A stretch of DNA of 64,000 nucleotides from positions 50,153-114,152 of IMG/VR virus record IMGVR_UViG_3300042261_002158; one strand, written 5' to 3'. The stretch is from a virus. The position numbers and the translations under genes are program-made. Below, piece by piece: positions 4,650 through 12,197 of the stretch (within the stretch, counting starts at the first letter, position 1; each line of letters starts with the position of its first letter). Below the pieces are notes generated by a model. That model did no database searches and was not told where the DNA came from. It saw nothing but the letters and a program-made list of their open reading frames with translations.

Positions 4650-5615
4650 CTATGCCTTTCTGAACCAATGTGGAGCCAATTTTCTGATTTGTTTGTCAAA
4701 TTCTGGATCGTAACTGCCTGTTTTTGGATTGGTATAGTTGCATAATGCCAATCCTATCTTAGACTCTCTTTGTTTTGGTCTGGGCTCTCCTCTTCTTGCC
4801 ATTTCCAATAAGAGCTTTTTGTTTTCCTCAGCCGTATCTACAAACCAATGTGGAGCTAACTTCCTGATTTGTTTGTCAAATTCAGGATCATAACTTCTGT
4901 TGTTGGTGTAGTTTATTAATGCTTGTCCTAATTTAGTTTTAGCATTTGGTCTGGGATCTCCTCTTCTTGCCATTTCCAGCAAGAGCTTTTTGTTTTCCTC
5001 AGCCGTATCTACAAACCAATGTGAAGCTAACTTCCTGATTTGTTTGTCAAATTCAGGATCATAGCATTTTTGTTTGATATTGGTATAAGAAACCAATGCT
5101 TCTCCTAATTTGTTTCCTCTTTTGCTTGGTCTGGGCTCTCCTCTTTTAGCCATTTCCAGCAGAAGTCTCTTATTTTCCTCAGCCGTATCTACGAACCAAT
5201 GTGGAGCCAACTTCCTGATTTGTTTGTCAAATTCTGGATCGTAACATCCATTTTTCGGATTTGTGTAGTTGCATAAAGTTCGCCCTAATTTGACTTTTTG
5301 AGAAGGTCTAGATTCTCCTCTTTTAGCCATTTCCAGCAAGAGCTTTTTGTTTTCTGCTACTACATCTATAAACCAATTCTCCCTTAAATCTCTGATTTGT
5401 CTATCAAATTCCAAATCATAGCATTCATGGTTTGGATTGGTATAATTGCACAAAGCCAATCCTAACTTATCGCTTCTTTTAGAAGGTCTGGGCTCTCCTC
5501 TTTTTGCCATTTCGAGTAGGAGTTTTTTGTTTATAGCTGAAGACGATTCTTCGTTAGCAAATTCAAGCCAACCGGTCATTTTTTCTAGTGCTTTGAGTTG
5601 CCACTTTTTAAGCAT
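4650..5615 (-). CDS. Tandem-repeat protein, 5 units
   Basis: 321 residues: the MLKKWQ cap followed by five repeats of about 58-60 residues, ending WFRKA. Start has an AAAGGG site and overlaps the stop of the upstream paralogue by 8 nt. The repeats within this protein are nearly identical over the ENKKLLLEMAKRGEPRP segment, with variable residues concentrated after it, the pattern expected if variable positions define target specificity. Function unknown. Confidence 0.8.
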   Translation of the reverse strand: MLKKWQLKALEKMTGWLEFANEESSSAINKKLLLEMAKRGEPRPSKRSDKLGLALCNYTNPNHECYDLEFDRQIRDLRENWFIDVVAENKKLLLEMAKRGESRPSQKVKLGRTLCNYTNPKNGCYDPEFDKQIRKLAPHWFVDTAEENKRLLLEMAKRGEPRPSKRGNKLGEALVSYTNIKQKCYDPEFDKQIRKLASHWFVDTAEENKKLLLEMARRGDPRPNAKTKLGQALINYTNNRSYDPEFDKQIRKLAPHWFVDTAEENKKLLLEMARRGEPRPKQRESKIGLALCNYTNPKTGSYDPEFDKQIRKLAPHWFRKA

Positions 5616-6564
5616 GCGGTCCCTTTCTGAACCAATCTGGCCTTAGTTTTTTGATTTCAGTGTCGAATTCTGAATCATAACAAGTATTTTTTTTATTTGT
5701 ATAATTACATAAAACCACACCTAATCTTTTGTTTGGTTTTGCTTCGCCATTTCGGGCCATTTCCAGCAAGAGTTTTTTGTTTTCATCAGCAGAATTTACA
5801 AACCAATCCGGCCTTAGTTCTCTGATTTGCCTACTGAAATCAGCATCATAACTATTTCCCTTATTGACATAATTGCACAGCAGTCGTCCTATCTTGGACC
5901 GTTTCTGTACTGGTCTGGGATCTCCTCTTCTTGCCATTTCGAGCAGGAGTTTTTTGTTCTCAGCAGGCATGTCTACGAACCAATCTGGTGTCAAATTTTT
6001 GATTTCTCTACAGAAATCTGGATCGTATGTTTGTTTTTTAGAACACATATAAGTGGTTAAAGCTTGGCCTAACTTAGTTTTACAAGTAGGTTTAGGCTCG
6101 CCTCTTTTAGCCATTTCGAGTAAGAGTTTTTTATTTTCAGTGGCTGTATTCGTAAACCAATGTGGAGCCAATCTCCTAATTTGCTGATCAAATTCAGGAT
6201 CGTATCCTGCTTGATCTTTATAAATATAGGAAGTCATGGCATTGCCTATTTTGGTTTTTTGTGAGGGTTTAGGATCTCCTCTTCTAGCCATTTCGAGCAA
6301 TTGTTTTTTCTTTTTCGTAGCAGTGCTTTCAAACCAATCCGGTCTTACGGATTTGATTTTGGCATCAAACTCTGGGCTATAGCATCCTCCTGTTTTTTTC
6401 AGATAGTTTTGGAGTGTTTTACCTAGTTTTGAATCATTATCAGGTCTTGGTTCTCCATTTTGAGCCATTCTGAGCAACAGGTTTCTTTTGTCGGTAGAGG
6501 TTTCGGAAAATTCGAACCAATCAGGGATATTCTCCAATGCTGTGATTTGCCATGTTTTAAGCAT
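5608..6564 (-). CDS. Tandem-repeat protein, 5 units
   Basis: 318 residues; MLKTWQITALENIPDWFEF cap and five repeats. More diverged than the neighbouring copies (for example KKKKQLLEMARRGDPKP and a one-residue-shorter unit), suggesting it is an older duplicate. The ATG is preceded by AGGAAG, which is part of the remnant's final codons. Function unknown; see the array entry. Confidence 0.8.
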   Translation of the reverse strand: MLKTWQITALENIPDWFEFSETSTDKRNLLLRMAQNGEPRPDNDSKLGKTLQNYLKKTGGCYSPEFDAKIKSVRPDWFESTATKKKKQLLEMARRGDPKPSQKTKIGNAMTSYIYKDQAGYDPEFDQQIRRLAPHWFTNTATENKKLLLEMAKRGEPKPTCKTKLGQALTTYMCSKKQTYDPDFCREIKNLTPDWFVDMPAENKKLLLEMARRGDPRPVQKRSKIGRLLCNYVNKGNSYDADFSRQIRELRPDWFVNSADENKKLLLEMARNGEAKPNKRLGVVLCNYTNKKNTCYDSEFDTEIKKLRPDWFRKGPHA

Positions 6565-6565
6565 C

Positions 6566-6695
6566 TTACTTCCTAAACCAGTCAGGTCTCAAAGTTTTAA
6601 TTTGTTTAGTGAATTCTGGACTAAAACACATTCCTTTATTGATGTATTTACAAAACGCTCGGTTTAAGTGCTGTAATTTGCCATTTTTTAAGCAT
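6566..6695 (-). pseudogene. Collapsed copy of the repeat-protein gene
   Basis: ATG at 6695 opens with the family cap (MLKKWQITAL) but the frame stops after 15 codons. A second frame immediately after it reads the last half-repeat (FCKYINKG...SPEFTKQIKTLRPDWFRK) to the stop at 6566. The two pieces are joined in different frames with all internal repeats missing. This is what an internal deletion between a cap and a terminal repeat would leave behind. Confidence 0.85.
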
Positions 6696-6696
6696 G

Positions 6697-7854
6697 TTAC
6701 TTCCTAAACCAATGTGGAGCCAACTTTCTGATTTTAGTGTCGAATTCTGGATCGTAAGTGTTACTTTTTTTATTTGTGTATTTACCCAAAACCAAGCCTA
6801 ATTTTGTCTTCCAATTTGGTTTTGATTCTCCATTCCTTGCCATCTTCAAAAGTCGTTCTTTCTTTTCTTTAACAATATCTGATTGGCTAACAAACCAATC
6901 TAATCTTAGTTTTCTGATTTTAACATCAAATTCTAGATCATAACAATTATTATTTTTATTAACATAATTACACAAGCATGCACCTAATTTTGTACATTGA
7001 GAAGGTCTTGATTCTCCTTTTGCAGCCCTCTCCAAAAGCAGTTCTTTATTCTCATTGGCGGTATTCGCAAACCAATCCGGTCTTAAATTTCTGACTTTAA
7101 TATCAAACTCTGAATCGTATGCGCTTTGACCGCTAGTAGTATAACTGCATAAAGCTACACCTAACTTATTGTGTTTGTTTGGTCTTGGTTCTCCATTCCT
7201 TGCCATCTCCAAAAGTCGTTCTTTCTTTTCATCAGCAATATCTGATTTACTAACAAACCAATCTAGCCTTAACTCTCTGATCTTGGCAGTAAATTCTGGA
7301 TCGTAGGAGCCACTATTTTTATTTGTATAACTACATAAAACTACACCTAACTTATTGGGTTTGTTTGGTCTTGGTTTTCCATTTCTTGCCATCTCCAAAA
7401 GTTGTTCTTTATTTTTATCAGCAGTATTCTCAAGCCAATCTGGTCTTAACTTCCGAATTTGTTTGTCAAATTCTGGATCGTAAGAACCATTATTTTTATT
7501 TACATAACCAAACAAACGCCCATACAATTTTGTTTTAAAACTTGGTCTTGGTTTTCCATTCCTCGCCATCTCCAAAAGTTGTTCTTTATTTTTATCGGCA
7601 GTATTTGTAAACCAATCTGGCCTTAACTTCCGAATTTGTTTGTCAAATTCTGGATCGTAAGAACCTTTATTTTTATTTGTGTATTCAACTAAACATCCCC
7701 CTAATTTATTTAATTTACAACTTGGTCTTGGCTCTCCATTCCTTGCCATTTCAAGTAATAGTTTTTTATTTTCAGCAGAAGATGATAATTCTTCAACAAA
7801 ATCAATCCAGCCAGGAATTTTTTCCAGTGCTGTGATTTGCCATTTTTTAAGCAT
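6697..7854 (-). CDS. Tandem-repeat protein, 6 units
   Basis: 385 residues, the longest and first-transcribed member of the array: cap MLKKWQITALEKIPGWIDF followed by six repeats. Units here use ARNGKPRP/ARNGEPRP and insert a few residues (SKSDIADEKK, SQSDIVKEKK) before two of the repeats, unlike the downstream copies. The ATG lies 5 nt upstream of the start-to-stop gap with the methyltransferase-like gene, so the whole block is probably one transcript. Function unknown. Confidence 0.8.
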   Translation of the reverse strand: MLKKWQITALEKIPGWIDFVEELSSSAENKKLLLEMARNGEPRPSCKLNKLGGCLVEYTNKNKGSYDPEFDKQIRKLRPDWFTNTADKNKEQLLEMARNGKPRPSFKTKLYGRLFGYVNKNNGSYDPEFDKQIRKLRPDWLENTADKNKEQLLEMARNGKPRPNKPNKLGVVLCSYTNKNSGSYDPEFTAKIRELRLDWFVSKSDIADEKKERLLEMARNGEPRPNKHNKLGVALCSYTTSGQSAYDSEFDIKVRNLRPDWFANTANENKELLLERAAKGESRPSQCTKLGACLCNYVNKNNNCYDLEFDVKIRKLRLDWFVSQSDIVKEKKERLLKMARNGESKPNWKTKLGLVLGKYTNKKSNTYDPEFDTKIRKLAPHWFRK

Positions 7855-10856: not shown

Positions 10857-11564
10857 TTAAAATTCTTCATGTGAAAATTCTTTTTTAAAATAAGAACGCA
10901 ACCCTTCAGTAATCTTTTCTTTAATTAAATTTAAATCAAAAAAGCAACTGTCGCACATTGCGGTTAAGTCTTTATCAGACATCAATTTAGACATATAGGG
11001 CGACAAGGCAACGTAATAACGAGATACTTTCCCTGAGACCAACCACATTTTGAATATTTTTGTATCCAAAAATTCCTTGATTTTTTCTAAAGATGGCTCT
11101 CCGTCGCATCTTTCAAATAAAAATTTCTTGGTTTTGTCAATTTCGTGAAAAAGTTTTGGATCGGTATTGTCTAAAACAGGCGTTTTGGAAGCTATTTCGT
11201 CTAATTTTCTATTGAACCATCGTTCCCAAACCTTCCAGCGAATCCAAGCTTTCTCTCCGCAAATGCAGTTGGGAGAAATATTTTCTGAATTATTCATTTT
11301 CAAAATGGTCAAATTGGCACGAATGTACAAGCTATTTTGTTCAGGTTTAAGTAAACCACGAGTTTCTCGCAACATTTTCCAGCAATGTTTAAAAAGAACC
11401 GATTTTCGAGGATCTTTTTTACTGGGCAAGGTATTACGTCGATAATCTACCCCATGAATATTTCCTTTGAAAATTTTAAGAAATTCCTCTTGATAAAGAT
11501 CTGCCATTTTGTAAGCATGCACTTCCTCAGGAGTCATAGACGAGATTAAATTGATGTCTATCAT
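10857..11564 (-). CDS. Hypothetical protein with C-pair motifs
   Basis: 235 residues from ATG 11564 (a TTG six codons upstream is an alternative). Contains CICG (about residues 101-104) and CDSC near residue 202, possible metal ligands, in an otherwise helical, lysine-rich protein. No Shine-Dalgarno is visible; TATATAAT ends 6 nt before the ATG, so the message may be leaderless or nearly so. Function unknown. Confidence 0.6.
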   Translation of the reverse strand: MIDINLISSMTPEEVHAYKMADLYQEEFLKIFKGNIHGVDYRRNTLPSKKDPRKSVLFKHCWKMLRETRGLLKPEQNSLYIRANLTILKMNNSENISPNCICGEKAWIRWKVWERWFNRKLDEIASKTPVLDNTDPKLFHEIDKTKKFLFERCDGEPSLEKIKEFLDTKIFKMWLVSGKVSRYYVALSPYMSKLMSDKDLTAMCDSCFFDLNLIKEKITEGLRSYFKKEFSHEEF

Positions 11565-11570
11565 GACAGA

Positions 11571-11578
11571 ATTATATA
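11571..11578 (-). promoter_or_regulatory. TATATAAT octamer 6 nt before a start codon
   Basis: On the minus strand TATATAAT is followed by six bases and the ATG at 11564. Same layout as upstream of 35546, 62036 and 63931; candidate late-type promoter giving a very short leader. Confidence 0.45.
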
Positions 11579-11624
11579 ACAAATGCTTATTTTGGTCTAG
11601 AAAAAAATTTTCTAAATTTTGTTA

Positions 11625-11653
11625 TTGAAATTTCTAATCGAATGCGCTATATT
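11625..11653 (+). promoter_or_regulatory. Sigma70-type promoter for the structured RNA region
   Basis: TTGAAA (11625-11630), a 17 bp spacer and TATATT (11648-11653). It points into more than 500 nt without a gene, so its main product is probably an untranslated RNA, possibly also the leader of the polymerase gene at 12198. Confidence 0.7.
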
Positions 11654-11659
11654 ACCCAT

Positions 11660-12091
11660 GTCGAAGAACCTTATTTTTAATTAAATAAGTAAGTAGACAG
11701 GCTTGTCCAATTGAATGGGAGAAGATACCTCCAAGTCTTTTGGGTAGCCCAAAACTAGAGCCGAGTACATAAGTTAGTTTTATGTTGAGCCTTGGAGCCG
11801 GGCAGGTTTACAGAGACCTAGTGCCTTTCTCGACGTACCGAGGTTTGCCGTGCTTCTTACTCGCATCCAGAGCGGTGACATTTGCATTAAAAAGCTTGCG
11901 AGGGCGCAAATGAAGATGCTACACGGTTAGTAGGTACACAAAAAAGCGTATCGTCAAAAGTTACAACGAAAGCATTGCTTGTAGTATATGCAGATATATC
12001 TAGTTTTTTAGATACTTCTGTAGCAAAAGGACCCTTAAGTACAAAACATTAGGGAAAAAAAACTTCCCTCAGTACTTAAGCATTACTTTTG
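11660..12091 (+). ncRNA. Candidate large structured non-coding RNA
   Basis: About 430 nt without an open reading frame, clearly more GC-rich between 11700 and 11940 than the surrounding genes. Visible hairpins: 11670-11676/11683-11689, TTTTGGG/CCCAAAA at 11738-11744/11748-11754, ACATAA/TTATGT at 11767-11772/11780-11785, CATTTGC/GCAAATG at 11879-11885/11906-11912, TATCTA/TAGATA at 11997-12002/12009-12014, and a composite 3' helix: 12024-12029 with 12086-12091, 12034-12042 with 12072-12080, 12051-12056 with 12064-12069. A sigma70-type promoter lies just upstream. It does not match tmRNA, RNase P or intron signatures I know; ornate phage RNAs such as GOLLD or ROOL are the closest idea. Ends are approximate. 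Confidence 0.6.
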
Positions 12092-12197
12092 TATTTATTC
12101 TATATTACAAGCATTAGCCACCGCCCCCTGGTCTAGACTTATAAAGAAATTTTAGAAAAGACTAGATTTTTAAAAATTAATTTGATAAGATGCAGGG

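Follow-up and report, generated by a model that had tools for sequence, protein, structure and literature searches.

What occupies the intergenic region at 11600-12197 of the window (the whole 64,000-nucleotide stretch analysed here, the final 64 kb of a virus contig of 114 kb), between a leftward gene for a 241-aa protein and a rightward gene for a family-A DNA polymerase, and what might it do there? Positions 11655-12130 hold a real structured RNA, beyond mere foldable intergenic DNA, and this pseudoknotted non-coding RNA of ~450-470 nt is almost certainly a new RNA class. The features of the locus are collected in table 1. The preliminary description had reported a region with no reading frame and with raised GC, and both were confirmed: the longest sense ORF has 43 aa (11782-11913), no antisense ORF has 40 aa or more, and GC content is 0.45-0.48 across 11700-12000 versus ~0.33-0.36 in the surroundings. 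The 3' end, placed earlier at 12120, was nearly right; the limit lies slightly further on, at ~12125-12130. The RNA region was computed to fold with a minimum free energy of -138.1 kcal/mol (z = -3.6), which none of 100 shuffled sequences equalled. Folding energy alone leaves the strand undecided, because the reverse strand folds equally well (z = -3.7).

Table 1. Features of the RNA locus; positions are those of the window unless another contig is named.
Feature	Position	Strand	Evidence or remark
Divergent 241-aa all-helical protein, no family assigned	10857..11582	-	conserved neighbour
Putative sigma70-type promoter of the RNA, TTGAAA-17-TATATT	11625..11653	+	motif; position conserved in 8/12 members
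Structured RNA, approximate inferred transcript limits	11658..12130	+	folding, alignment, R1, covariation; 3' limit placed by the conserved pairing strands at the 3' end
Predicted 5' hairpin CUUAUUU/AAAUAAG	11670..11689	+	sequence, folding; variable 5' domain
Variable 5' stem GGCU..CCAA..GGGAG/CUCC..UUGG..AGCC	11700..11749	+	folding; family test p = 0.08, not significant
Conserved core found by R1	11751..11938	+	36 bits, E = 2e-9
Three-way junction: Pa 11755-11760/11829-11835, h1 11761-11764/11792-11795, h2 11801-11809/11814-11825	11755..11835	+	covariation
Central domain, closed by Pb 11848-11856/11914-11926; conserved GGUUAGNAGG at 11925-11934	11847..11935	+	covariation
Helix a, 11860-11865/11897-11902	11860..11902	+	98.6% of cells paired; 5/6 pairs changed on both sides
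Pseudoknot helix b, CAUUUGC 11879-11885/GCAAAUG 11906-11912, crosses helix a	11879..11912	+	read from member sequences
Long-range helix c, GCGGUG 11872-11877/CACCGC 12119-12124	11872..12124	+	family permutation p = 1.5e-4
Long-range helix d, UGCUUGUAGUAUA 11976-11988/UAUAUUACAAGCA 12101-12113	11976..12113	+	family permutation p = 5e-5
Helix e, CUUAAGUAC/GUACUUAAG, 12034-12042/12072-12080; inner hairpin GGGAA/UUCCC 12052-12068	12034..12080	+	family permutation p = 5e-5
U-rich linker between helix e and strand d', conserved	12083..12100	+	alignment
-10-like UAAGAU immediately upstream of the polymerase start	12186..12191	+	similar in most relatives
Family-A DNA polymerase, 439 aa	12198..13517	+	downstream marker gene
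Second-type (group 2) RNA-like regions	L056 5219-5652; L058 5281-5760; L059 5076-5484; L060 5003-5396		

The same locus was found in many IMG/VR contigs by protein searches with the polymerase and its divergent neighbour. In relatives that have the homologous RNA, it sits between the divergent 241-aa gene and the family-A polymerase gene, and where the polymerases are ~46-54% identical a non-coding stretch of 500-700 nt again separates the two genes. Direct blastn of the window RNA against the first three relatives gave no significant match, and a structure-based search was therefore needed. Motifs common to ten aligned members were AAAACCAUAGGAGCCGGGUGAGUCUUACCGG, CCGAGGUNNGCC and GGUUAGNAGG. 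A covariance model, R1 (176 positions, 38 pairs), was built on four relatives as the seed, with the window left out. R1 recognised the core of the window RNA and, at E ≤ 5e-13, matched 11 members besides it, a number that includes the seeds; the non-seed members matched were the window and 7 others, at E ≤ 2e-9. No further match was obtained in ~250 kb of phage sequence, and each of seven records held one copy per genome. A 458,813-bp contig carries the RNA; a 527,112-bp contig has both flanking genes and no R1 match, and R1 likewise gave no match on L021, despite an identical locus arrangement. Scans outside the polymerase locus with patterns of the conserved motifs returned only members at the polymerase locus or chance matches in unrelated contexts (e.g. 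L005, L010-L013), and a search for relatives of the polymerase in bacterial genome contigs returned none.

Homologous intergenic regions upstream of family-A polymerases were thus collected, and compensatory changes were found among 12 members, as the preliminary description had proposed to look for. In the 12-member alignment, which was fitted to R1 and to that extent leans towards the structure, standard pairs filled 93.8% of the paired cells, versus 65.8 ± 1.5% in shuffled alignments and 35-46% with slid partners, margins that are still very large. Changes on both sides were seen in 33 of the 38 modelled pairs, the covariation score was 0.784 versus 0.243, and 32 of 35 pairs in the window core were standard. 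Eight of the 12 aligned members, the window among them, stood outside the seed; the helices were chosen after ten members had been viewed by eye, which leaves the structure not fully independent of these ten. Chance folding of AT-rich intergenic DNA would agree with promoter-like and terminator-like sites that, taken alone, occur near chance level, but it is refuted by a level of covariation that none of the 500 shuffles or the slid controls reached and by the independent R1 match, and its probability is negligible.

Summed over all members, the paired cells hold 26 G-U against only 5 A-C, and this excess identifies the + strand as that of the RNA. The same excess, expected of a + strand RNA, bears on whether the structure works as DNA, in the form of extruded origin hairpins with transcription incidental. 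Such a DNA structure would suit a position at the GC-skew minimum and the good folding of both strands, but it is most improbable in view of the G-U pairs, and the pseudoknots and long-range helices spanning 130-250 nt are RNA-like.

The conserved fold consists of a three-way junction, a domain with an internal pseudoknot and two long-range helices by which the 3' end is anchored in the rest of the molecule. Pairings were assessed by a strand-swap permutation test, in which the strands of each RNA were compared with strands exchanged among members. The stretch of helices a and b, tested together, gave p = 0.004. Helix c pairs the 3' end with the loop that separates a from b; in the window itself it has only 6 bp and is not distinctive (rank 10 of 12), and its counterparts in relatives are GGUGCCAUGG/CCAUGGCACC (L045), GAUGCUAUGGU/ACCAUAGCAUC (L017) and ACUCUUGG/CCAAGAGU (L016). 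The nested 3' composite helix of the preliminary description is helix e with its inner hairpin. Counterparts of it occur in the relatives. Covariation and the strand-swap tests together back the fold of a large structured phage RNA, as had been claimed from the window alone.

An own promoter had also been claimed, and this claim held in part. The motif TTGAAA-17-TATATT is present and, with 10 of 12 matches, ranks first among the sigma70-like sites of the region, and in 8 of the 12 members, including the window, the top promoter lies 64-98 nt upstream of the conserved core. For the window taken by itself the score does not exceed chance (p = 0.07), promoter-like sites in the region are near the chance number (5 seen versus 3.5 ± 1.8 expected), and the scores of the 12 members are individually modest (mean z of 0.94 per sequence). 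An independent promoter of the RNA is plausible on the conserved position of this site. The polymerase ATG is preceded at 7-12 nt by a -10-like hexamer (UAAGAU, UAGAAU or UAUAAU) in most members, and this suggests a transcription start of its own for the polymerase gene, giving an mRNA with a short leader or none.

These elements bear on whether the RNA is a cis-acting leader of the replication operon, controlling the long rightward transcript as an attenuator or by processive antitermination of the put type. The put RNA of phage HK022 is an antitermination RNA of ~65 nt with two hairpins, and the window RNA is like it in being structured and in standing where an operon begins, immediately downstream of a putative early promoter; it differs in its length of ~470 nt, in its pseudoknots, and in that the polymerase has a -10-like element of its own. 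A leader would account for an RNA that in every case precedes the polymerase operon and runs in its direction, for the lack of a clear + strand terminator between the RNA and the next gene in the window, and for helix e with its following U-rich tract, which resembles a terminator or pause site with the conserved 3' strands coming after it. A leader specific to the polymerase is weakened because another gene separates the RNA from the polymerase in L034/L046 and in L048. The -10-like hexamer so close to the polymerase ATG in most members also speaks against a leader, as does the 3' end that pairs back into the body, as in a finished RNA, and the fold is far bigger than is known for antitermination RNAs. 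The leader explanation was judged rather unlikely, yet it is a serious rival of the origin role discussed below.

Comparison with known RNA classes was made at several levels. The covariance-model check proposed earlier was run with Rfam (4227 families), and no known family matched at the RNA, either when the window and ten loci were searched at the gathering threshold or under relaxed limits (E ≤ 10 on the RNA region and E ≤ 1 on eight relatives). By ARAGORN, the window and 14 related loci contained no tRNA or tmRNA, and blastn of the RNA against 50,697 phage records gave no match. The statement that the region has no tmRNA, RNase P or intron signatures therefore agrees with ARAGORN and Rfam alike. 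Searches of open-licence papers found no description of the RNA, and one in a subscription journal is possible.

Among individual candidates, GOLLD was rejected on the lack of an Rfam model match (E ≤ 10) and of any tRNA in or near the RNA (ARAGORN), ROOL on the lack of an Rfam model match, tmRNA, which has tRNA-like ends and a tag reading frame, on the ARAGORN and Rfam results, and RNase P RNA, whose conserved core Rfam models recognise, on the Rfam result. For group I and II introns there was no Rfam match, and the region is intergenic, with the polymerase reading frame beginning downstream. An HDV-like ribozyme, a class with a nested double pseudoknot, a catalytic C and cleavage 5' of P1, was considered on the order a-b-hairpin-a'-b', which is alike by eye; the insert between a and b is longer, and no Rfam match was found. 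With no match to GOLLD, ROOL, tmRNA, RNase P RNA or an intron, the RNA is therefore placed in a new class. The preliminary description had allowed for the RNA either belonging to an ornate class or founding a new one; the second option thus stands, and membership of GOLLD or ROOL falls as far as Rfam tests it. The newness is at the level of the RNA class only, in that no match in sequence or fold was found among those tested; large ornate phage RNAs are already known as a broad idea.

GOLLD and ROOL are large phage or prophage RNAs of unknown function that often lie beside tRNA islands and form cages (PMC12286853). Many GOLLD RNAs exceed 800 nt, a ROOL example has 659 nt, and ROOL has several pseudoknots (PMC12286853). 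The window RNA shares with GOLLD that both are large, ornate, structured phage non-coding RNAs; it has about half the size, lies at a replication locus instead of tRNA islands and has no Rfam match. With ROOL it shares the character of a large phage RNA with pseudoknots, and it differs in being smaller, away from tRNAs and confined to a single replication-linked locus, again with no Rfam match.

A trans-acting RNA, either a ribonucleoprotein scaffold or an RNA-only particle like GOLLD and ROOL, could merely be parked at the switch point of early genes. Its large size, pseudoknots, single copy per genome and own putative promoter would fit such an RNA, as would the conserved unpaired motifs GUCUUACC, CCGAGGU and GGUUAG, and phage RNAs that self-assemble are known in GOLLD and ROOL (PMC12286853). 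It is, however, smaller than these two, unlike both models and without tRNA genes nearby, and the constancy of its locus among diverged phages would be needless for a freely trans-acting RNA. A trans-acting role was considered rather unlikely, but it too is a serious rival.

The neighbours of the RNA include genes for the family-A polymerase, a DnaB-like helicase and a gp32-like SSB. The 241-aa protein, aligned with 24 relatives and encoded divergently from the unit of RNA and polymerase, was predicted with confidence to be all-helical (pLDDT 91.7); comparison by fold and family gave no clear relative, and a profile search gave a single weak match to a sigma factor (FliA, E = 0.27), which was not relied on. 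Further to the left, at 5608-7854 on the - strand, the window encodes two adjacent proteins that consist of tandem LLEMARNGEPRPS..KLG..L..Y repeats.

In the window contig the minimum of the cumulative GC skew (within 25 kb) lies 350 bp from the RNA; it lies 0.3, 1.0 and 1.6 kb away in three relatives, and 18 kb and 5.6 kb away in G001 (458 kb) and G004, so that 4 of 6 contigs have it within 0.3-1.6 kb, the minimum being confounded with gene direction in that divergent orientation alone can create one. Larger ORFs within 12 kb in the window contig number 11 minus and 0 plus on the left and 12 plus and 0 minus on the right, and across contigs the genes within 12 kb mostly point away from the RNA. 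In huge phages, GC skew of such a kind has been taken to indicate bidirectional replication (PMC7162821).

Since the RNA stands at the switch of skew and gene direction, beside a family-A polymerase and a replicative helicase, an origin role is favoured, and we infer that the RNA may help to initiate or regulate replication of the phage DNA at its locus, as a primer, R-loop or scaffold (probability about 0.4). The RNA would be transcribed on the + strand from the host-type sigma70 promoter and would fold while being transcribed, with the 3' strands c' and d' docking into the rest of the RNA only once transcription reaches the 3' end. The finished RNA might then prime the origin or hold it open, in an R-loop like that of RNA II extended by the family-A polymerase, or, as an alternative step, recruit replication proteins to the origin. 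The nearest working model would be RNA II of ColE1, a sigma70-driven, structured origin RNA of ~550 nt that serves as a primer extended by a family-A polymerase. A primer of this type forms a persistent RNA-DNA hybrid at the origin and is processed by RNase H. The window RNA resembles RNA II in its putative sigma70-type promoter, size and structure and in the family-A polymerase beside it, its own placement at an origin being putative; it differs in that no relation in Rfam or sequence was detected and in that it is phage-encoded.

The RNA is not universal at this locus, since some distant relatives (L022, L023, L024 and LR756511) hold a coding gene in its place. In L022 (4808-5992), L023 (4829-5992) and L024 (4793-5968), all lacking the RNA, a gene of 387-394 aa lies between the divergent gene and the polymerase gene, and a similar reading frame lies upstream of the polymerase in L037. 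LR756511.1, a 595-kb phage record, has distant relatives of the polymerase and the 241-aa gene, with a coding gene filling the space between them. In L056, L058, L059 and L060, and perhaps in L049 and L051, which are more distant relatives with both flanking genes, another conserved non-coding stretch that R1 does not recognise is found at the same place (group 2 in table 1). Its 3' end can pair with the homologous internal site (c/c') in four cases; the permutation test was not significant (p = 0.08), and this pairing is only suggestive. A more specific form of the origin role, in which an autonomous phage origin RNA would prime or license replication with the phage's own short family-A polymerase and would exist in two sequence-unrelated versions at the same origin locus, is put forward tentatively and seems doubtful as a whole.

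A compositional feature of the locus was observed separately. The tetramer GCGC is strongly avoided in the phages with the RNA (5 in the 64-kb window) and is 12-fold enriched in the RNA region, with 23 in 7 kb inside versus 46 in 170 kb outside (Poisson p ~2e-17), as counted over window positions 11583-12197 and their equivalents in 10 relatives. Other GC tetramers are 1.4-3.4-fold enriched in the RNA region. GCGC often occurs as UAUGCGC directly 3' of the RNA end, and the site may be tied to methylation, restriction or an origin.

Large, intricately folded phage RNAs are rare, and the start of replication in huge phages is largely unexplained. A new class with covariation-supported pseudoknots, placed at a conserved replication-switch locus, offers a concrete handle on both questions.
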